A DNA stretch of 63,876 nucleotides from Deltaproteobacteria bacterium. Lineage in GTDB: Bacteria > Desulfobacterota > Desulfobacteria > Desulfobacterales > SpSt-501. The notes below the pieces were generated by a model, which saw only the letters and a program-made list of their open reading frames with translations, did not search any database and had not been told where the DNA came from. The stretch is from contig JACRCN010000037.1 in NCBI GenBank assembly GCA_016219005.1, forward strand, positions 1 to 63,876. Reading direction: 5' to 3'. A program made the position numbers and the translations under genes. Shown here in pieces: positions 53,283 through 63,132 of the stretch (position 1 is its first letter; the number at the start of each line of letters is the position of its first letter).

Positions 53283-53912
53283 ATGTCGCCTGAAACCACG
53301 GTGTGGCTCGTCCGGCACGGCTACGTTCACAACCCGAAAAAGATCATCTATGGCCGGCTGCCGCGCTTCCGTCTGAGCGAACGCGGCCTGGAAGAGGCCC
53401 GGGCCGCCGGGCGGATGATGTCCGAAATGACGCTGCATGCCGCATACAGCAGCCCGCTGCTGCGGGCCCGCCAGACGGCCCGGGAGATTCTGGCGTTTCA
53501 TCCGCAGCTCAGGCTCAGGCAGTCCCCGCTTTTAAATGAGGTGTTCACGGCGTTCGAGGGCAAACCCAGCCATGTGGGGGACAGCCGGCGTGATGATTAT
53601 TACACCGGCGTGGGGCCGCCCTATGAGCAGCCGGCGGACATCGTCGGCCGGGTCTTGGCGTTTTTCGAAAATGCGCGGCGGCGCCATGCCGGCGAAAACG
53701 TGCTGGCCGTCACCCACGGGGACATCATCGTCTTCACCATGCTATGGGCCCGGGGCCTGGCGTTCAGCCCGGAGAACAAGATCAATCCGCACGCCTTCGG
53801 GTTCGATGGATATCCCGCCACCGGCTCGCTGACAGCCTTCATCTTCCGCACGGACGCCGACGGCGAATTGCCTGAAGTCCGCTACATGCAACCTGCCTTG
53901 ACAGAGGGCTGA
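53283..53912 (+). CDS. Histidine phosphatase family protein
   Basis: A 209-aa phosphoglycerate-mutase-like phosphatase. The phosphohistidine motif is VRHGYVH (about residues 10-16; usually RHG-E/Q), with a downstream catalytic pair seen in SSPLLRARQTA and VTHGDII. Such enzymes act on sugar phosphates, alpha-ribazole phosphate, phosphoserine or protein phosphohistidine. The substrate here is unknown. It lies convergent with the PIG-L gene; a role in the neighbouring possible thiol pathway (dephosphorylating a glycosyl inositol phosphate, for example) is only speculation. Confidence 0.8.
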   Translation: MSPETTVWLVRHGYVHNPKKIIYGRLPRFRLSERGLEEARAAGRMMSEMTLHAAYSSPLLRARQTAREILAFHPQLRLRQSPLLNEVFTAFEGKPSHVGDSRRDDYYTGVGPPYEQPADIVGRVLAFFENARRRHAGENVLAVTHGDIIVFTMLWARGLAFSPENKINPHAFGFDGYPATGSLTAFIFRTDADGELPEVRYMQPALTEG

Positions 53913-54043: not shown

Positions 54044-54739
54044 TCAGGGTGGAGCCTCGACGTAGTGGAAGGCCTCGGCCAGGCCGAAGGATTCCCCCGC
54101 CGCCATCTCTCGGCAGCGCTGGCGCAGCCACTCTTCCGGGTCGCCGCGTTTGAACTCGCGCACCTGAGTCTTGTGGCAGCGCAGGGCGGCGATCTTGAGG
54201 TCGAAGGTCGCCGTGATGTCCGAGCGGCGGTTGATGTCCTCCGCGCCCCAGAAGTAAAGCTCCTGCACCTTGTGGGGTGCAAGGCCTTCCGCTATCAGGT
54301 CGGGGTAGGCCAGGTGGTCGCGCGCGAACGGGAAGACGGCGTCCAGGACGACCTGGCCGATGATGCGGTGATCGCGGTGCCAGATGTAGCGGCGGTAGGG
54401 GTCCGAGGTCATGACGATCTTCGGCCGGTACGTGCGGATCATGCGGACGATGAGCTTGCGGAACTCAGCCGTGTCCTCGATCCCCTGGTCGGGCCGCCGC
54501 AGGAACACCACCTCCTGCACCCCGAGGGTGCGGGCCGCGGCGCGCTGCTCTTCCTCCCGGATCGGGGCCAGCAACTCCGGGGTCAGCGACGGGTCGCTGG
54601 TGCCCTTTTCGCCGCTTGTGCAGACGACATACGTGACCCGTCGCCCTGCCTGCACCCACTGGGCCACTGTTCCGGCGGCACCGAACTCGCTGTCGTCCGG
54701 GTGGGCCGCAATCACCAGCACATCGGCCTGAACCGTCAT
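54044..54739 (-). CDS. PIG-L family deacetylase (MshB/BshB-like)
   Basis: A 231-aa zinc-dependent N-acetylglucosaminide deacetylase of the LmbE/PIG-L family. The metal motif is AAHPDDSEFGAAGT (about residues 11-24), with a further metal histidine in WHRDHRIIG (about 120). Family members remove the acetyl group from GlcNAc-inositol in mycothiol (MshB) or GlcNAc-malate in bacillithiol (BshB) synthesis. It overlaps the glycosyltransferase gene by four bases (ATGA) and has GGAGG upstream. It is the last gene of a tightly packed leftward operon that encodes an MshA-like transferase, a GNAT-like protein and a CysS-domain fusion. Confidence 0.9.
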   Translation of the reverse strand: MTVQADVLVIAAHPDDSEFGAAGTVAQWVQAGRRVTYVVCTSGEKGTSDPSLTPELLAPIREEEQRAAARTLGVQEVVFLRRPDQGIEDTAEFRKLIVRMIRTYRPKIVMTSDPYRRYIWHRDHRIIGQVVLDAVFPFARDHLAYPDLIAEGLAPHKVQELYFWGAEDINRRSDITATFDLKIAALRCHKTQVREFKRGDPEEWLRQRCREMAAGESFGLAEAFHYVEAPP

Positions 54740-56067
54740 TGTAAGCCTCCTGCCGCCATCAGCACGGCCTCATCTGCACGGCATCCTGCGATTTCGCAAC
54801 GCCCGGCCGCGCAGGGTGCCGCCGTGTCATCATGCGCATCTTCGATCGTCGGCCCCGCGGCCATGCGGCTGTCCCGGTATACCGCCAGAACCTCTTCGGC
54901 CACCCTGGACCAGTCATATCGCCATACCGACCGGCGCACCACCTCAGGGCGCTCCCCGTTTTGCGATAGGACCTCGGCGATCGAATCAGCCAGCGAGCGG
55001 GCACTGCCACTTTTCGCCAATCGCCCGTTGGCCTTCTGGTGAATGAGGTCATCGGTGGCGCCGACGCGTGTTGCCACCACCGGCGTTCCGCAGGCCAGGG
55101 CCTCCAGCGCCACCATCCCGAAGCTCTCATAGACCGACGGCAGTACGAGCAGGTCCGCGGCGCTGTAATACTGGGGCAGCACGATTTGATCGACACGCCC
55201 CGCGAAGGTCACCCGCTCCTCGATGCCGGTATCACGGCACAATTGCCGCATGCGCTGATGGGCCGGATCGTCCTCACCGTCTCCGCCGACGATCATCACC
55301 CGCAGATGCGGGTAATGCTTCATGCAGGCCACGGCGGTGAGCAGCCGGTCCAGACCCTTCTCCGGGGCGAACCGGCCGACATACAGGACCAGCCGGTCCT
55401 GCGGCGCGACGCCGATGCATCTGCGTGCGGCCGGTTTCGCAACCGGGCGGAACAGCCCGAGATTCACCCCGCAGGGCACGACCGCCAGCTTCTCGGCCGA
55501 GGCGCGGTAGTGGCAAAGCAGATTCTGCATTTCCCGGCTGGAGGTGACCAGGATCCGGTCGCAGGACTCTACCAGGCGGAATTCGGCGGCGATGCGGGTT
55601 TCGGATTCGCACGCGTTCGCGCACAGCAGGTTCTTCACCGCGCCAAGGGTGTGAAAGGTGGTGACGTGGGGGGCGCTCCACGCCTGCCGGGCCTGAATCC
55701 CCACCTGCCCGGATAGCCAGTAATGACTGTGGATGACGCCGTAGTCGATGCCCTCGCGCTGGCGGAATTCCTCCAATGCCCTGAAAAAGGCGAACAGATA
55801 CGGGTAGAGCTCTGTTTTCGGAGCATCGGTGCTTGCTCCCAGATCCAGGTGGATAACCCGCACGTTCTCGGACAGGGCGATCCGCTGCCCCGGCTGCGCG
55901 CCGTCGGCGGTGCGCGTGAAGATGTCCACCCGGTGTCCGCGCTCCCCGAGTTCGCGTGCCAGTTCCCGGATGTAGACGCTCATCCCGCCGGTGTCCTGGG
56001 TGCCGAGCCGGCCGACCGGGCTCGAGTGGACGCTGATCATCGCAATGCAGTGGGGCCAGGGACGCAC
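54736..56067 (-). CDS. Glycosyltransferase family 4, MshA-like
   Basis: A 443-aa retaining glycosyltransferase of the GT-B fold. The N terminus (SVHSSPVGRLGTQDTGGMSVYIRELAREL) and IHSHYWLSGQVG are close to MshA, which joins UDP-GlcNAc to inositol phosphate, and to sucrose-phosphate synthases. The C-terminal half has the donor site (YVGRFAPEKGLDRLL, YESFGMVALEALACGTPVVAT, with the nucleotide-binding E-x7-E). GTG at 56067 is a suggested start; a TTG at 56109 and an ATG at 56040 are alternatives. It overlaps the deacetylase by four bases. MshA-like assignment rests on eye comparison; a surface-glycan transferase is the alternative. Confidence 0.85.
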   Translation of the reverse strand: MRPWPHCIAMISVHSSPVGRLGTQDTGGMSVYIRELARELGERGHRVDIFTRTADGAQPGQRIALSENVRVIHLDLGASTDAPKTELYPYLFAFFRALEEFRQREGIDYGVIHSHYWLSGQVGIQARQAWSAPHVTTFHTLGAVKNLLCANACESETRIAAEFRLVESCDRILVTSSREMQNLLCHYRASAEKLAVVPCGVNLGLFRPVAKPAARRCIGVAPQDRLVLYVGRFAPEKGLDRLLTAVACMKHYPHLRVMIVGGDGEDDPAHQRMRQLCRDTGIEERVTFAGRVDQIVLPQYYSAADLLVLPSVYESFGMVALEALACGTPVVATRVGATDDLIHQKANGRLAKSGSARSLADSIAEVLSQNGERPEVVRRSVWRYDWSRVAEEVLAVYRDSRMAAGPTIEDAHDDTAAPCAAGRCEIAGCRADEAVLMAAGGLQ

Positions 56068-56087
56068 GGGTATCTTCTCTTTCGGGG

Positions 56088-57098
56088 TCAGGCCGTTTCG
56101 ATCCGGCAATGGTAAACCGGCACGTCCCTGCCGCCGAGCTGTCGTTTGTAGGTTTCGTTGCCCTTCAGAAAATCATACTTGGCCAAACCGCGGGAGATGG
56201 CATCCTGGATGCTCAAGACTTTACAGAGGATGCCCACGCTCAAAGAACCCTGACCGGAGTCAAAGGCGCTGTTGTATAGGTAGCGCGTCGCGCCGTGGTC
56301 GAAGCACATTACAGCGGCTGCGGCAGCCCCGTCAATATCCAGAAATCCCAGGCGTGTTGCCGGCACCCGCCGCGCCAGCGTCCGGAAGAACGATTCCATG
56401 CGTGCGGTCATGAATTCGGCCTTGTCGGCGCGGTTCATGCGGAAAAGCCTCAGAAAGTCTTCCATGCCGGCGTCGATGTCCCCGCGGCCGCCCACCATTC
56501 GAAACGTGAAGGCGGCGCTTTGCTGCAGCCGCCTGAGCTTGCGTCGGACTTCGTGGCGCTGCTTGCCGGATAGCCGATCCAGGTATTCCTCCCAGGTGGG
56601 CGGCAGATCGGCCTCGAACAGGACGTCTTCGGTTTCGCTCGCAACCGGCCACCCTCTCCCGCGGGCTTGCGGCACCAGCTCCGTCATGACGACCGAATCA
56701 GGCCGGACCGGCCCGAGTTCCATCCGGGTCACGGCCTCGCGGTTCACATAATCCAGGAGGGTTGCGCAGAATTCCTTTATCCGCCGGGGGTCCACCACGA
56801 CATCCAGATGATCGCAGACATCCGCACCCCCCATGAGCCGCAGCGAGCCGCCTTCCCGCTGGAGAGGGGCGATCCCGATCAGCCGGCGGTCCTCCCGCAC
56901 GGAAAGAATCAGGGATTCGGCCGGAGGGGCGAATACCTCCCACCAGGCGTGCAGCCAACCGGGCAGGATGAATGGGGAGGCCCATTCCAGCTCATTTCCG
57001 GGCACCTGAACCGGGTCGGGCAGGCTATCAAACGTCTCCACGCTGACCGTGAAATGACCCGATGCCCGGTCCGAGGTCGAAGAACTCTGCCGCATCAT
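56088..57098 (-). CDS. GNAT-fold acyltransferase (BioF2/CelD, Fem-like)
   Basis: A 336-aa protein of the Acetyltransf_6/COG5653 type, two GNAT-like halves in one chain. Recognised by SPFILPGWLHAWWEVFAP near the N terminus, a basic central GKQRHEVRRKLRRLQ (about residues 178-192) and the C-terminal acyl-donor region GLAKYDFLKGNETYKRQLG (about 305-323). The family is related to FemX-type enzymes that transfer amino acids from aminoacyl-tRNA, and to acetyltransferases. It overlaps the S51/CysS fusion by four bases (ATGA). In context it could acylate the amino sugar made by the PIG-L and GT4 products, a role like MshD or MshC. That is inference. Confidence 0.82.
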   Translation of the reverse strand: MMRQSSSTSDRASGHFTVSVETFDSLPDPVQVPGNELEWASPFILPGWLHAWWEVFAPPAESLILSVREDRRLIGIAPLQREGGSLRLMGGADVCDHLDVVVDPRRIKEFCATLLDYVNREAVTRMELGPVRPDSVVMTELVPQARGRGWPVASETEDVLFEADLPPTWEEYLDRLSGKQRHEVRRKLRRLQQSAAFTFRMVGGRGDIDAGMEDFLRLFRMNRADKAEFMTARMESFFRTLARRVPATRLGFLDIDGAAAAAVMCFDHGATRYLYNSAFDSGQGSLSVGILCKVLSIQDAISRGLAKYDFLKGNETYKRQLGGRDVPVYHCRIETA

Positions 57099-58351
57099 TC
57101 ACCCACCCGCCACCGGGCGCCGCGGCTCGTGTCCTCGACGACGACGTCGGCCCGCTGCAGGCAGTCTCGCAGCATGTCGGCTTCGGTCCAACGCTTTTCC
57201 GCCCGTAAGTGATCGCGCAGGCTGAGCAATTCCTCCACCAGCGGCCCGAGGCACTCGGCCGTAGTGCGCGGTGCTGCGGACATGGCGGTTCCCATCAGGA
57301 CGACCCACTCCCGCAGGATTTCCCGCGTCTGGGAGATGAACTCCTCGCTTTCGAGATCGCGGGAGGCCCTCCAGACGATGCGGTCGAGCTCCAGGATCGC
57401 GGACGACATGTGCGCGGGGTCGCGGCGGTCGAGGCCTTCCTGAAACCTGCGTTCGAGCGCGTGAACGCCTTCCCAGAACGATCCGGTGTCGCCGGAGCCG
57501 GCCGGCGGGTGCGGCTCGGAAACCGCTCCGGCCGGCCGGTGGGCGGCGGGTTCAAACGGCTGGCCCCGGAGAACGTCCAGGGGCGCGATCTCGTTTTTCG
57601 TTAGCACCCGTTCCGACCCGGCATGGCGCAGGACGACACTGCCGATCCCGCGGATGCGCACCTCGTTGCGCGTAAGATCGATGATGCAGGCCGTATGTTC
57701 TTCGAGGCCGAGGATGACCACATCGTCCGGAAGGAGACTCTCGAGAGCCCTGAAGCGCGGCTCCCCCATGAAGCAGAAGCGAGTGTCGTGGTTGCCGCCC
57801 TCGGCGTTGTTCCAGTGGGGGACCACGACCAGGTTGAGGCCGAAGCGGCCCAGGATGTCGATTCCGGGCTCCCAGCGCGGGTCTTCGCCCACTTTGTAGA
57901 TTTCGTACACCGGCAGCGTGAAACGCCCCACGGTCAGGGCCGCCGCACTTGCCGCCACCAGGCACCCGCCGGACTCGATGCGTTGGGCCAGAATGTCAGT
58001 GACGGGGGTGCCGGTCCACTGGCGCACGGCGTAGGTGGGGCTTCCGGGCCCGATCAGAACAAAGTCGGCCTGTTTGAGTGCGATAAAGGCTTTTTCGGAT
58101 TCGAACAGTGCGGCCCGGGTCTTGGACTTGTATGATGCCAACGCCATGGGATGGCCGACTTTGTCGCGGAAATACTCGCCGGCCTTGGCCGAAATCTGGT
58201 CGGCGTTCAGCTGGAACCCGGCCGGCGTGTCTAAAAATACGGCCCGGGCCTCGGGGCCGAGCCTTCCGATCATGTCCTTGTGAACTTCCACCATGGTGGC
58301 GGTGAGCTCACCCGAGCCCATGAGGACGATATGGCCCTTGCCTGGGAGCAT
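57095..58351 (-). CDS. Peptidase-S51-like domain fused to CysS C-terminal domain
   Basis: A 418-aa fusion. Residues about 1-255 are a class-I glutamine-amidotransferase-like fold of the peptidase S51/cyanophycinase type (GHIVLMGSGELT, GPGSPTYAVRQW, CLVAASAAAL with the candidate nucleophile serine, HWNNAEGGNHDTRF). Residues about 300-418 resemble the C-terminal tail of cysteinyl-tRNA synthetase (LRAEKRWTEADMLRDCL ... VVEDTSRGARWRV). No CysS catalytic domain is present. The start at 58351 has GAAGGG upstream. It overlaps the GNAT gene. A link to cysteine or Cys-tRNA in a thiol pathway is suggested by the tail. Confidence 0.8.
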   Translation of the reverse strand: MLPGKGHIVLMGSGELTATMVEVHKDMIGRLGPEARAVFLDTPAGFQLNADQISAKAGEYFRDKVGHPMALASYKSKTRAALFESEKAFIALKQADFVLIGPGSPTYAVRQWTGTPVTDILAQRIESGGCLVAASAAALTVGRFTLPVYEIYKVGEDPRWEPGIDILGRFGLNLVVVPHWNNAEGGNHDTRFCFMGEPRFRALESLLPDDVVILGLEEHTACIIDLTRNEVRIRGIGSVVLRHAGSERVLTKNEIAPLDVLRGQPFEPAAHRPAGAVSEPHPPAGSGDTGSFWEGVHALERRFQEGLDRRDPAHMSSAILELDRIVWRASRDLESEEFISQTREILREWVVLMGTAMSAAPRTTAECLGPLVEELLSLRDHLRAEKRWTEADMLRDCLQRADVVVEDTSRGARWRVGE

Positions 58352-58375
58352 AAACACCCTTCGTGAGTGCCTTCC

Positions 58376-58476: not shown

Positions 58477-59187
58477 TTAGAGATGATCTTTGACCTCGAT
58501 CGGCAGCAGGACCCGTTGTCCATGATGAAATACGGCTTGGCCGTCGGGTTCATAAACGGTTACGGCCCCTTTGCCGTACACTGTCCATTGGCCTTCGGGC
58601 CTGTCATTCAGCAGGCCGGTTTCCTCGTCGATCCCGATCAGGAGCGCCCCCGGTAACAGACGGGTCAGTCGCGGCGCCCAGTTTTTGCCGAAAGTGTCAT
58701 GATGCGGCAGCACGCACACCTCCGGCAGAAGATCGAGGCCCGGCAACACGTTGCCGGAGGCTGAATCAAAATAGAATTCGCACAGCACCATGGCCCCGGC
58801 GCTGCTGCCGGCGATGACGGCACCGGCCCGCAGGGCGCTCACCATCGCCTGCCAGGCCAGGCTATCGGACAGGGTTTCCGCCAGGTAACGGGTGAAACCG
58901 CCCAGCACAAAAACAAGCCGTGCGCGTTCGATCTCCTTTGCCAGGTCGGGCCGGTCGGCAGAAGCGCGGTCGATGATGTCAACTGCCCGAACGTCGGCAG
59001 CCCCGAGGCTCTGAAACCAGCCGACTCCGTTCGCTGCGGCGCGCGCGTGGTTGTTGTCCGGAGCGGCCGCGGCCGGGATGATGCGGACCGGCTGCGCCCG
59101 CCCGCCGCAGACCGCTATGGCGCGCTCATCCGCGGCCGCCATCCCCGCGTTGAACTCACTGCCTCCCTCGAGCAGGACAAAACCCAT
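58477..59187 (-). CDS. Peptidase S51 / cyanophycinase-like protein
   Basis: A 236-aa serine peptidase-like protein. The nucleophile motif is canonical (AGSSAGAM, about residues 124-131), with LPHHDTFGKNW carrying a likely catalytic histidine and ALLIGIDEETGLL near the C terminus. Family members cleave cyanophycin or aspartyl dipeptides. It is 125 bases upstream of the S51/CysS fusion and is transcribed in the same direction, so it may be the first gene of the operon or share its regulation. It has a less degenerate active site than its neighbour. Confidence 0.85.
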   Translation of the reverse strand: MGFVLLEGGSEFNAGMAAADERAIAVCGGRAQPVRIIPAAAAPDNNHARAAANGVGWFQSLGAADVRAVDIIDRASADRPDLAKEIERARLVFVLGGFTRYLAETLSDSLAWQAMVSALRAGAVIAGSSAGAMVLCEFYFDSASGNVLPGLDLLPEVCVLPHHDTFGKNWAPRLTRLLPGALLIGIDEETGLLNDRPEGQWTVYGKGAVTVYEPDGQAVFHHGQRVLLPIEVKDHL

Positions 59188-59533
59188 GGTGTCCCCATAA
59201 CCTGCTAAATCGATTGGAGATCAAATTAACACCAAAGCTGGGGATGTCAACAGCGGGCTTCAAGTTGAAGGCGGGTTTCACGATTTGAAAAATCCCTCTG
59301 GCCACCTCTATCAAAGGGAGGATTTTATAAGCGACTTCTTCCGAAGTTGTTCCGGGCGAATCCGGCCTTGCAACGGCAAAGAAAAATCTTCTGTTTTCGA
59401 TGCAGTCCTGCCTTTTTCTTGACACCGCACGACCCCTAACATAGAATGCATTTCCTCAATGAAACCGGCTCTGTGACAGACGGGATTGATGCTCGACGAG
59501 TCAACAACCACCAACAATGTAGGGAGGTGCTCG
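59188..59533. other. Divergent region between S51 gene and TRAP cassette
   Basis: These 346 bases hold the promoter of the TRAP cassette at 59419-59447 and no gene. The left part (59190-59400) is of mixed composition, with a few imperfect inverted repeats and nothing recognisable. Confidence 0.4.
59419..59447 (+). promoter_or_regulatory. Sigma-70 promoter of the TAXI TRAP cassette
   Basis: A perfect -35 box TTGACA (59419-59424), a 17-base spacer and a good -10 box TAGAAT (59442-59447). Transcription would begin near 59454, about 80 bases before the start of the binding-protein gene. Confidence 0.8.
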
Positions 59534-60481
59534 ATGAAAAGACTGTTCAGTGTGTGCGTGGCGGTTCTGTTTGTGATCGGTGCGGTGGCCTCGGTGCAGT
59601 CGGCCGACAACCTGGTGCTCGCCACCGGCGGTACTGCCGGGACCTACTACCCCTTCGGCGGGGCCATGGCCAAGATCTGGAACTCCAAGATCAAGGACAT
59701 GAATGTCACCGCCCAGACCAGCGGCGCCTCGGGCGAGAACATCCGGTTGATCAACAAGAAAGAGGTCGAACTCGCCCTGGTTCAGAGCGACACGCTGGAC
59801 CAGGCCTGGAACGCCATGGAAGCCTTCAAGGAGCCGCTCAAAGGCATGAGTGCCATCGCAACACTCTATCCTGAAATCGTCCAGGTCGTAGTACGGGCCG
59901 ACAGCCCGATCAAGACCTTCGCCGACCTGAAGGGCAAGAAGGTAGGTGTGGGCGCTCCGGGCAGCGGCACCGAGATCAACTTCCGGCAACTGATGGACAT
60001 CTACGGTCTGAAGAAGGAAGACGTCAACGGGCAGTACTTGTCTTACTCCGAGAGCGCGGAAGCATTCAAGGACAAGCACATCGACGCCTTCATAGCGACG
60101 GCCGGCATCCCCAACTCGGCCATCATGGATGTTTCCACGCAGAACGAAATCCGGATTCTCCCGATCTCCGCCGACATCTCAACCAAGCTGATCCAAAAAC
60201 ATCCCTTTTTCGCAGCGGTGAAGGTCCCGGCCAACACTTACAAGGGCCTGACTGCGGACGTGCCCACCGTGGCGGTGAATGCCGTGCTGATTGCCGGCAA
60301 CCAACTGAAGCCGGATATGGTCTACAACCTGACCAAAGCCCTGTTCGAGAACCAGACGGACCTGGCCTCCGCTCATGCCAAGGGCAAGGAAGTGAGCCCG
60401 AAGTACGCGGTGCAGGGCGTGTCCATTCCCTTCCATCCGGGCGCGGTGAAGTATTTCAAAGAAAAAGGCCTGATGAAGTAA
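59534..60481 (+). CDS. TAXI-family TRAP transporter solute-binding protein
   Basis: A 315-aa exported binding protein. Signal peptide of about 23 residues (cleaved after QSA), then the TAXI hallmark ATGGTAGTYYPFGGAMAKIWN (about residues 28-48) and the GAPGSGTEINFRQLMDIYGL motif (about 142-161). It would capture an acid, such as glutamate or a related carboxylate, in the periplasm and hand it to the fused permease. AGGGAGG precedes the ATG. A hairpin follows directly and the DUF1850 and permease genes come next. Confidence 0.92.
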   Translation: MKRLFSVCVAVLFVIGAVASVQSADNLVLATGGTAGTYYPFGGAMAKIWNSKIKDMNVTAQTSGASGENIRLINKKEVELALVQSDTLDQAWNAMEAFKEPLKGMSAIATLYPEIVQVVVRADSPIKTFADLKGKKVGVGAPGSGTEINFRQLMDIYGLKKEDVNGQYLSYSESAEAFKDKHIDAFIATAGIPNSAIMDVSTQNEIRILPISADISTKLIQKHPFFAAVKVPANTYKGLTADVPTVAVNAVLIAGNQLKPDMVYNLTKALFENQTDLASAHAKGKEVSPKYAVQGVSIPFHPGAVKYFKEKGLMK

Positions 60482-60483
60482 AC

Positions 60484-60512
60484 AGCCATCCCGCCCCCAG
60501 GGCGGAATGGCT
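60484..60512 (+). terminator. Hairpin after the binding-protein gene (possible attenuator)
   Basis: AGCCAT-C-CCGCC and GGCGG-A-ATGGCT pair around a five-base loop, with one mismatch, two bases past the stop codon. Only TTT follows, so partial termination or 3'-end protection is likely. That would make binding protein more abundant than the permease, as is usual in such operons. Confidence 0.5.
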
Positions 60513-60625
60513 TTCGAGTCCAAGGGGTCCAGGGTTCAAGCGAAACGTCTTCACGCGGTGTTCACTTGCCCTCGACCCCTTTGATCTGTTCCCGCGTGAT
60601 CAAGATAGACCGAGCGCGATCTTTG

Positions 60626-61129
60626 ATGAGCCATCGGCTGAGTTTGGGTTTGCTGATTGCGGGAGCTGCGGTGGTCGTGGTTTTCGGCTGGCCCTTCTTC
60701 AGCGTGCTTGAGATCAGCGATTTAAATACCGGCCGGGCCGTGCTGTGCGCCCGCATGCGCGCCGGGGAGGAATTCGTACTCGCGTTCACCCACTCCGTCA
60801 ACCGACGGCCGGTGTACGACACGCTGCGGGCGGAAGGCGACCGCCTGGTCATCGTCAAGTCCCGGTTTGACTCCTTCGGTGCCGGCATGCCGGAGGCTTC
60901 GACGGACGAGGGGACGCTGATCGTCGCCCCGGACGGCTGGCTGGAATGGACGGTCAACCGCCCCGTGCCTGAGATCATCGTCCGGGTGGGGCGGGTGGCC
61001 GAGCATAAATTGAATTTCAAAGGACGCGAGATCCGGCTTGCGGATCTGGCGCAACCCGGGGCACCATTAATCATGCGCGTTCGCAAAGCGCGAATGCTCG
61101 ATCTCGTGAAAGGCAGGTGCGTGCCGTGA
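60626..61129 (+). CDS. DUF1850 protein of TAXI TRAP operon
   Basis: A 167-aa protein with one N-terminal membrane helix (about residues 6-26) and a domain with LAFTHSVNRRPVYDTLR (about residues 50-66) and FDSFGAGMPE, which is the DUF1850 signature. It is regularly encoded between the binding protein and the permease in TAXI-type TRAP operons and may be a small accessory subunit like DctQ, but its role is not established. The start at 60626 (MSHRLS) is preferred over an earlier ATG at 60566. It overlaps the permease gene by four bases (GTGA). Confidence 0.85.
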   Translation: MSHRLSLGLLIAGAAVVVVFGWPFFSVLEISDLNTGRAVLCARMRAGEEFVLAFTHSVNRRPVYDTLRAEGDRLVIVKSRFDSFGAGMPEASTDEGTLIVAPDGWLEWTVNRPVPEIIVRVGRVAEHKLNFKGREIRLADLAQPGAPLIMRVRKARMLDLVKGRCVP

Positions 61130-63132
61130 GCGAAAAAGAAGAAGATCCGGTTCAGTCCGGTGTCCTCACCACCAAGATGGAAGGGGTCGAGGCCGTTTCC
61201 AAGGAAGAGATCGAGAAGATCCTCAAACAGGTCGACAAGGAGGCCCGCGCGCGCAAACTGACCGGCACGCCGCATTGGATCGTCTATGTCATCGGCGTTT
61301 CGTGGTCGATCTTCCAGGTATACACGGCGGCCTTCGGATTGCTCCCTGCCCAGCTGCAACGATCCATCCACCTGGCGTATGCCTTCGCATTGACCTACCT
61401 GCTGTTCCCGGCCCGCGCCGGCAATGAGGACAATCGCCTGTACTGGTACAACTGGGTCTTGGCCATTTTTGCCTGTTACATCGGGTTGTACATGGCCTTA
61501 AATTACGTGCGCATCATGGAGGCCGGCGGGGATTATTCACGCATGGATTATTTCGCCGCCGGATTCGGCATCCTACTCACGCTGGAGGCGGGGCGACGGG
61601 TGGTGGGGCTGCCGATCGTCTGCCTGGCGACGTTTTTTCTGTTCTTCTGCTATTTCGGAGCATATTTCCCCGGTTTCATGTCGCACCGCGGGTATTCATT
61701 GGAGCGCATTGCATCCCACATGTACCTGACCACCGAGGGCATCCTGGGTATTCCTTTAGGGGTGGCGGCGACGTTCATCTACCTGTTCATCCTGTTTGGT
61801 TCCTTCCGTGAAAAGTCGGGGCTGGGGCAGCTCTTTATCGACATTTCCAACGCGGTGGCCGGCTGGGCCTCCGGCGGCCCGGCCAAGATGGCCGTCATCA
61901 CCAGCGCCCTGGAGGGAACGGTGTCCGGAAGCTCGGTGGCCAACACCGTGGAATCCGGAAGCCTCACCATCCCCATGATGAAGCGTCTGGGCTACCGGCC
62001 CGAGTTCGCGGCGGCGGTGGAAGCCTCATCCTCCACGGGCGGGCAGATCATGCCGCCCATCATGGGGGCTGCGGCCTTCATCATGGCCGAGTTCCTCAAT
62101 GTGCCCTACCTCGACATCGCCAAGGCGGCGGCCATCCCGGCCTGCCTCTATTTCTTCGGCGTGTTCATGGAAGTACACTTCGAGGCCAAGCGCTGCAACC
62201 TGCGGGGCCTGAGCCGCGATGAGCTGCCCAGGTTTGTGGACGTCATGAAGGAGCGGGGGCATCTCTTCGTTCCGCTGTTTGCGATCATCATATTTCTTTC
62301 GATCGGGTTTACTCCGCTTTACGCCGCTCTTATGGGCCTGGTGACTTGCATCATTGCGGGTGCTTTGAAGAAAGCAACCCGCATGAGCCCCCGGCAAATC
62401 GCCGACGGGTTCGAACTCGGTGCCCGCAACGCTGTCGGGGTGGCGCTTGCCTGCGCGTCGGCCGGCATCATCATCGGCGCGATTACCCTGACCGGGCTGG
62501 GGCTCAAGCTGGGCAACGGCCTGGTGGAATTAGCCGGCGGCAACCTCCTGTTGACGCTTATCTTCACCATGGTTACCTCGCTCATCCTCGGCATGGGGGT
62601 TCCGACCACGGCCAACTACATCATCACCTCCACCATCGCGGCCCCGGCTCTGATCCAACTGGGGGTGCATCCGCTGGCGGCCCACATGTTTGTCTTCTAC
62701 TTCGGCATTGTGGCCGATATTACGCCGCCGGTCGCCCTGGCTGCGTACGCCGGCGCCGGTATCGCCAAATCCAACGCCTTCTGGACGGGGGTCACTTCCA
62801 CCAAGCTCGCCATCGGGGCGTTTCTGACGCCCTACATCTTTGTCTACAACACCTCCATGCTCTGGATCGATACGACATGGTACGCGATGATCCAGACCCT
62901 GATCACGTCCTGCGCCGGCATGACGGCAATCGGGGCGGCCATGATCGGTTATTTCGTGGCACCGATGAACTGGGTCGAGCGGATCTTGTTTGTCATCGGC
63001 GGCCTGCTGCTAGTGGACCCGGGCACGCTCACCGACATCATGGGCCTCGGCCTGCTGGCCGCGTGCGTGGCCAACCAGTATCGAAAGAAAAGAGCAGGAG
63101 TCGTCAGCACGGCAACGACTGCGGACGCTTGA
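61126..63132 (+). CDS. TRAP transporter fused permease (DctQM-type, TAXI-associated)
   Basis: A 668-aa membrane protein with about 17-18 helices. The N-terminal part (about residues 50-170) corresponds to the small DctQ subunit, the rest to the DctM-type ion-transporter domain, with GTVSGSSVANTVESGSLTIPMMKRLGY, SSSTGGQIMPPIMGAAAF and MGVPTTANYIITSTIAAPAL. It would import the substrate of the binding protein with sodium or protons. The start at 61126 (GTG, overlapping the DUF1850 stop) follows AGGCAGG; a GTG at 61117 is possible. A strong terminator follows. Confidence 0.93.
   Translation: MSEKEEDPVQSGVLTTKMEGVEAVSKEEIEKILKQVDKEARARKLTGTPHWIVYVIGVSWSIFQVYTAAFGLLPAQLQRSIHLAYAFALTYLLFPARAGNEDNRLYWYNWVLAIFACYIGLYMALNYVRIMEAGGDYSRMDYFAAGFGILLTLEAGRRVVGLPIVCLATFFLFFCYFGAYFPGFMSHRGYSLERIASHMYLTTEGILGIPLGVAATFIYLFILFGSFREKSGLGQLFIDISNAVAGWASGGPAKMAVITSALEGTVSGSSVANTVESGSLTIPMMKRLGYRPEFAAAVEASSSTGGQIMPPIMGAAAFIMAEFLNVPYLDIAKAAAIPACLYFFGVFMEVHFEAKRCNLRGLSRDELPRFVDVMKERGHLFVPLFAIIIFLSIGFTPLYAALMGLVTCIIAGALKKATRMSPRQIADGFELGARNAVGVALACASAGIIIGAITLTGLGLKLGNGLVELAGGNLLLTLIFTMVTSLILGMGVPTTANYIITSTIAAPALIQLGVHPLAAHMFVFYFGIVADITPPVALAAYAGAGIAKSNAFWTGVTSTKLAIGAFLTPYIFVYNTSMLWIDTTWYAMIQTLITSCAGMTAIGAAMIGYFVAPMNWVERILFVIGGLLLVDPGTLTDIMGLGLLAACVANQYRKKRAGVVSTATTADA

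Follow-up and report, generated by a model that had tools for sequence, protein, structure and literature searches.

Mycothiol synthesis is the closest described counterpart of a four-gene operon that we analysed on a 63,876-nt stretch of DNA (the window; contig JACRCN010000037.1 of the Deltaproteobacteria bacterium assembly GCA_016219005.1). The mshA-D genes are described as confined to Actinobacteria (PMC6282198). The operon resembles the mycothiol gene set in encoding an MshA-type GT4 glycosyltransferase and a PIG-L deacetylase, with an Ino1 neighbour in some relatives and an MshD-like GNAT in a few. It differs in lying outside Actinobacteria, in scoring below the equivalog cutoffs, and in having no dedicated MshC, in place of which it encodes a Fem-like GNAT and a protein that joins an S51 peptidase domain to a CysS_C domain (S51Cys). 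Bacillithiol synthesis likewise shares a GT4 and a BshB-like PIG-L protein with the operon, but the genome has no BshC and the GT4 scored 323.9 bits on the NCBIfam MshA model (TIGR03449, cutoff 462.5) versus 122.2 bits on the BshA model.

Along almost the full length of its model, the GNAT has the double-GNAT fold of FemABX, MprF and streptothricin-type aminoacyl-tRNA transferases (Sbb17, Sba18), and an acyl-CoA loop is likewise missing. It differs from them in belonging to Acetyltransf_6 (PF13480), with only about 9-15% identity and a donor that is predicted. The streptothrisamine acceptor in structures 9wqx and 9wqy is an aminosugar compound. S51Cys has the fold and the Ser-His-Glu triad of peptidase family S51 (cyanophycinase, PepE), but carries a tail derived from cysteinyl-tRNA synthetase (CysRS) and scores just below the Pfam cutoff. 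Assembly from an aminoacyl-tRNA is not known for any low-molecular-weight thiol, and neither this operon nor a tRNA-dependent thiol was described in the open-licence literature that we searched. The operon might make a mycothiol-type thiol in which the GNAT uses Cys-tRNA(Cys) in place of MshC, a reading to which we give a probability of about 0.5.

Gene layout and distribution of the operon

Open reading frame (ORF) analysis resolved four overlapping ORFs on the minus strand of the window (54044-58357):

57095..58357, minus strand: S51Cys, 420 aa, S51-type serine hydrolase domain (about 8-258) followed by a CysRS C-terminal helical bundle and CysS_C tail (about 295-419)
56088..57098, minus strand: Fem-like tandem GNAT, 336 aa, Acetyltransf_6 (PF13480, 82.2 bits), proposed cysteinyl-tRNA:glucosaminyl-inositol transferase
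54736..56109, minus strand: MshA-like GT4 glycosyltransferase, 457 aa, TTG start uncertain, Pfam GT4 domains and TIGR03449
54044..54739, minus strand: PIG-L zinc deacetylase, BshB/MshB-like, 231 aa, Pfam PIG-L (112.9 bits) and NCBIfam

Consecutive genes overlap by 4 nt (S51Cys/GNAT), 22 nt (GNAT/GT4, a value that hinges on the unproven TTG start of the GT4) and 4 nt (GT4/PIG-L). The ORF of S51Cys starts at 58357, where the initial annotation of this DNA had begun at the Met at 58351. That annotation had described four genes in one overlapping operon, as the ORFs confirm, and Pfam found all of the families it had called (GT4, PIG-L, GNAT/Fem-like, here as Acetyltransf_6, and CysS_C); the N-terminal S51-type hydrolase domain had been overlooked.

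S51Cys, the marker of the operon, was detected in 43 of 291 genomes sampled from the class, one of them being the source genome. S51Cys had at least 563 relatives in named genomes, and the best 80 were kept as loci. These came mostly from metagenome-assembled genomes (MAGs) and included Desulfobacterales, Syntrophobacteria, Nitrospiraceae/Nitrospirae, Thermodesulfovibrionia, Deferrisomatales and Syntrophomonadaceae. The gene-neighbourhood survey of the CysS-tail fusion that had been suggested earlier showed the four-gene set to recur: all four genes occurred together in 41 of the 80 loci, in 40 of these on the same strand, and the grouping therefore exceeds chance. Among the other 39 loci, 23 had less than 7.5 kb downstream of S51Cys, so that genes may be cut off, and 16 are not explained in this way.

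Co-occurrence was compared across 80 genomes, 43 with and 37 without S51Cys; the latter were the first ones listed rather than a random draw, and the genomes are related, so that Fisher values computed from the counts do not stand for independent samples. PIG-L was present in 38/43 genomes with S51Cys versus 1/37 without, and the GNAT in 40/43 versus 1/37; all 39 genomes bearing PIG-L also had the GNAT. That the operon is real and widespread, with a gene set and a logic resembling mycothiol synthesis, is well supported.

Proposed pathway

The gene set, its conservation, the folds, the conserved residues and the co-occurrence were established by computation; from them we infer the pathway that follows, with all of its reactions, its tRNA donor and its product. 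The GT4 would couple N-acetylglucosamine (GlcNAc) and inositol phosphate. The phosphate would be stripped by a phosphatase, for which the histidine phosphatase encoded next to the operon is a candidate, and PIG-L would deacetylate the product to glucosaminyl-inositol (GlcN-inositol). Ordinary CysRS would charge tRNA(Cys), and the Fem-like GNAT, replacing MshC, would move cysteine from Cys-tRNA(Cys) to the glucosamine amine. S51Cys would bind tRNA(Cys) through its CysRS-derived tail in an accessory role: it would hold Cys-tRNA or release it, or else hydrolyse the cysteine amide in a recycling step. Because of the MshA-like GT4 with its inositol-phosphate residues, the Ino1 neighbours, and the MshD-like and glyoxalase-II-like genes, we predict a cysteine conjugate of GlcN-inositol as the most likely product.

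There is a little less than an even chance that Desulfobacterota, Nitrospirota and other groups build a redox thiol by means of a Fem-like transferase, which takes cysteine from Cys-tRNA(Cys), and a dedicated hydrolase that binds tRNA(Cys). If true, a GlcN-inositol thiol made via Cys-tRNA would tie translation to redox chemistry, add to the tRNA-dependent enzymes of small-molecule synthesis and represent a new way of building a cellular thiol. The marker set of S51Cys, GNAT, GT4 and PIG-L could then predict thiol chemistry in uncultured anaerobes.

GT4, PIG-L and the inositol sugar

The MshA model score proves little about the GT4, because it lies below the cutoff and because a Burkholderia GT4 not called MshA reached 310 bits on the same model; we therefore rejected it as proof of identity. 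The residues were more informative. MshA K78, Y110, T134 and R154 reportedly bind inositol phosphate (structure 3C48). At these positions the operon GT4s carried Lys in 33/35 and Tyr, Thr and Arg in 35/35 sequences, and the GT4 of the window had all four. Among 16 control rows, all read in their correct frames, the full set was found only in the Tsukamurella and Nocardia MshA rows and in no non-MshA row. The Nonomuraea MshA row had Arg in place of Lys at the K78 position, a Methanosarcina row had Tyr and Thr without Lys and Arg, and the remaining twelve controls had no Thr.

In a 51-row tree, in which six control branches were still long, the operon GT4s formed a clade (99/99) that joined actinobacterial MshA with moderate support (85/85), apart from the other controls. 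They also joined MshA (85/90) in a 47-row tree that left out Methanosarcina, Skermanella and Roseomonas, which had very long branches, and Arthrobacter, which was removed by a stop-codon filter. Only the Tsukamurella row of the three MshA rows is annotated as such. Both trees agree with the earlier MshA-like call and place the operon GT4s apart from the other GT4s sampled, among which the Roseomonas control was the only one adjoining an annotated polysaccharide gene. A first tree, in which the Nocardia and Nonomuraea rows were in the wrong frame, had disagreed by placing Tsukamurella MshA with other GT4s (94/98) instead of with the operon rows, and was discarded. On a Burkholderia multivorans replicon (L229:3992-9236) an MshA-like GT4 gene adjoins a UDP-glucuronate decarboxylase gene, with a PIG-L deacetylase gene about 3.5 kb away.

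In 10 of 38 loci, clustering of the neighbouring genes put one for Ino1, the inositol-1-phosphate synthase, beside the operon; Pfam identified one member of this cluster. Its domain PF01658 was detected in 39/43 genomes with S51Cys versus 11/37 without; PF07994 was rejected as a test for Ino1, since it was insensitive and missed Corynebacterium glutamicum.

PIG-L was first described as MshB-like. The family was confirmed, but the NCBIfam BshB1 model scored higher (104 bits) than MshB (53 bits), both below cutoff. Residues H13, D15, D16, H121 and H124 were invariant in 28 sequences. MshD-like GNATs were present in 6 of the 80 genomes compared, all of them PIG-L carriers; the source genome, searched at E 1e-12 with an MshD-like sequence, had none. 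The MshD-like proteins of four relatives scored 79-100 bits on MshD (cutoff 163.1). GloB-like (glyoxalase-II-like) hydrolases made up 22 of 166 sequences examined, in which at least one genome appears twice; four were scored, all below cutoff. GloB-like and MshD-like genes lie beside PIG-L in some relatives.

The Fem-like GNAT

The AlphaFold2 (AF2) model of the GNAT (predicted local distance difference test, pLDDT, 93.0) matched aminoacyl-tRNA transferases with Z 17-22 over 260-285 aligned residues and shared their double-GNAT fold. Highest were Sbb17/Sba18 (Z 21.4-21.7; 9wqw 21.7), followed by FemX (6snr, 21.1), FemA (20.9), Weissella FemX (19.4-19.7) and MprF/L-PGS (17.3-19.5), versus 14.2 and 13.0 for MshD. 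None of 36 GNATs had the acyl-CoA pyrophosphate loop in the motif-A window, which was placed by text search; only this window is informative, since the expression matches 22/36 GNATs when allowed anywhere. All seven MshD-like proteins had the motif somewhere. Searching PDB sequences with a profile of the GNATs yielded no match. FemX Lys305 (PMC12945691) may correspond to the invariant K318 of the GNAT.

Cysteine transfer from Cys-tRNA by a Fem-like enzyme, which the initial annotation had tentatively proposed, agrees with the modelled fold, which is closest to aminoacyl-tRNA transferases; Cys-tRNA as the donor is our best reading and stands at about even odds. It is rather unlikely that the operon makes a GlcN-inositol conjugate that is no thiol, the GNAT attaching some acyl group other than cysteine that it takes from acyl-CoA or from a different aminoacyl-tRNA. 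The amino acid is suggested only by the CysS tail of a neighbouring protein, S51Cys occurs unlinked to the operon in some loci, and the first Foldseek row by E-value was an acetyl-CoA tandem GNAT (2wpw, 1.4e-11, versus 1.5e-11 for FemX; its Z was 14.0). Against such an acyl group speak the missing acyl-CoA loop, the CysRS-type tail of S51Cys, and the GloB-like and MshD-like genes beside PIG-L.

The S51 hydrolase with a CysRS-derived tail

The CysS_C tail of S51Cys scored 32.9 bits in Pfam (cutoff 23) and the S51 domain 20.5 bits, below its cutoff of 23.9. The AF2 model (pLDDT 83.7) matched the S51 fold of 6nqc with Z 25.4. Residues 295-419 aligned to 1u0b_B, a CysRS bound to tRNA(Cys), with Z 8.4 and a root-mean-square deviation of 16.7, and the subdomains are therefore differently placed. 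The catalytic triad S137-H181-E220 was present in 29/29 sequences. In the tail, R385 was conserved in 28/29 (one Lys), and an aromatic residue at 390 as well as D394 and D409 in 29/29; we take these residues to be the tRNA anticodon contacts of CysRS. Two loci (L071, L072) encode S51Cys without the helical bundle but with the tail, for which Pfam detects CysS_C only in L072.

Three MAG loci showed no GNAT, GT4 or PIG-L gene downstream of S51Cys, over 3.8 kb in L152, 10.0 kb in L153 and 6.0 kb in L154. Four actinobacterial homologues, including those of Streptomyces and Nonomuraea, keep the same residues. Streptomyces and Nonomuraea make mycothiol with MshC. Because of the three loci without partners, the actinobacterial homologues and one genome (G030) that lacks S51Cys, we treat the protein as a putative tRNA(Cys)-binding accessory rather than as the ligase.

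There is a small chance that S51Cys is itself the cysteine transferase. Cysteine from tRNA(Cys) would then be bound to its Ser in an acyl-enzyme and handed on to GlcN-inositol, and the GNAT would be an acetyltransferase like MshD. N-terminal Asp-X bonds are the target of S51 dipeptidases, PepE among them, and from this chemistry an aminoacyl-enzyme would be natural; the invariant triad and conserved tail residues also agree. This role is opposed by the homologues in the two MshC-using actinobacterial genera, by the presence of the other three genes without S51Cys in G030, and by the GNAT fold, which suits a tRNA role better.

S51-CysS_C proteins without other operon genes nearby were also seen on Streptomyces-family replicons (L218, L219), besides L152-L154. 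Two further loci (L151, L155), at first considered as stand-alone S51Cys, were dropped, since only 673 and 343 bases lay downstream.

Search for a cysteine ligase

The initial annotation had noted that neither MshC nor BshC accompanies the operon, and this holds. BshC had no match in the source genome, while the same search matched 3 of 14 control genomes, and no MshC was found above cutoff or conserved with the operon. CysS was searched in 44 genomes, the 43 carriers and G236. Two matches were found in 37, usually one ordinary CysS and one of fusion type, three in 3, one in 3 and none in one (G236).

The fusion of CysK and CysS first looked linked to the operon. However, long frames (at least 759 aa) that gave a second CysS match were also present in no fewer than 49 of the 54 genomes that lack S51Cys, and KMSKS was lost in 15/15 fusion-type proteins examined (12 from carriers, 3 from non-carriers), and we rejected the fusion as the missing ligase. 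The fusion was confirmed by family models only in the source genome and called by frame length elsewhere; one (canon_L162) of three canonical CysS control rows from relatives was a wrong ORF and was left out. Fusions of cysteine synthase with a CysS-like module that has lost KMSKS were seen at L041:15239-17500 and L204-L217; most genomes of the order have one beside a normal CysS.

The source genome further encodes a 436-aa CysS without CysS_C but with intact HIGH and KMSKS, which scored 273.9 bits on MshC (cutoff 485.1). Truncated forms were also found in the carriers G154 and G095 and perhaps G222, as well as (about 400 residues) in G004, G043, G045 and G058, all without S51Cys; being restricted to a few genomes of both groups, they indicate that no dedicated ligase accompanies the operon. 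Cysteine ligation by an MshC-like CysS paralogue encoded elsewhere, whether a truncated form or the fusion, consequently has a slim chance: the truncated proteins of the carriers would fit it, but most carriers have just an ordinary and a fusion-type CysS, and both candidate types occur without S51Cys.

CysS-like genes also lie beside HgdB/HgdC-like and selenium genes at L039:6836-12113 (SelB-like) and L202:7426-14147 (SelD/YedF-like; both by eye). The L039 CysS has no anticodon domain, and the two loci possibly hold a selenocysteine-linked CysS paralogue.

Evidence against the proposed pathway

Besides the Burkholderia score and the first Foldseek row, several observations weigh against a cysteine conjugate of GlcN-inositol made from Cys-tRNA. 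PF01658 had no match in the source genome, G113, G120 and G222, a real gap. One single-contig genome (G263) has S51Cys without a GNAT or PIG-L match, and G030 has GNAT, GT4 and PIG-L without S51Cys. No msh gene is annotated near the two actinobacterial S51Cys genes with annotated neighbourhoods. Acetyltransf_6 proteins may all be FemX-like in fold whatever their donor, and the truncated CysS could be the ligase in the source genome, judging from its motifs. With up to 74.9 bits on RimI (cutoff 86.4), the MshD-like proteins came nearer to that cutoff than to the one for MshD, and RimI would be nearly as good a label. The new thiol or aminosugar conjugate put forward by the initial annotation is therefore retained in part: the GT4 tree, the missing BshC, the GNAT fold and the conserved residues of the CysS tail favour it, while the lack of Ino1 in the source genome and the loci with S51Cys apart from the other genes do not.

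Polysaccharide loci often contain GT4, PIG-L and Acetyltransf_6 genes, and a PEP-CTERM FemAB model matched the GNAT weakly (12.4 bits, NCBIfam), but a surface glycan or lipid modification operon with no link to thiols is very unlikely given the GT4 trees and inositol-phosphate residues, the Ino1, MshD-like and GloB-like partners, and the lack of flippase, polymerase or export genes among the labelled neighbour clusters, at which no search was aimed.

Neighbouring genes

Two neighbours of the operon in the window recurred in the clustering of the 38 loci:

58477..59187, minus strand: second S51 (cyanophycinase-like) protein, upstream neighbour, Pfam 56.2 bits, cluster in 20/38 loci
53283..53912, plus strand: histidine phosphatase (Pfam), convergent with PIG-L, cluster in 17/38 loci, candidate for the dephosphorylation of GlcNAc-inositol phosphate

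Gfo/Idh/MocA genes joined the operon in 19/38 loci, with two copies in 17 of the 19. Two of these proteins (L044) scored best on general oxidoreductase and D-xylose dehydrogenase models; inositol 2-dehydrogenase was the runner-up, and no score reached its cutoff. A 550-aa operon gene of the same locus (L044:10239-11891) encodes a Gfo/Idh/MocA domain from residue 200, and its N-terminal half appears ThuA-like by eye. TAXI/TRAP transporter genes adjoin the operon in the window (59486-63132), encoding an NMT1_3 binding protein, a DUF1850 protein and a fused permease, and were found in 5/38 loci.

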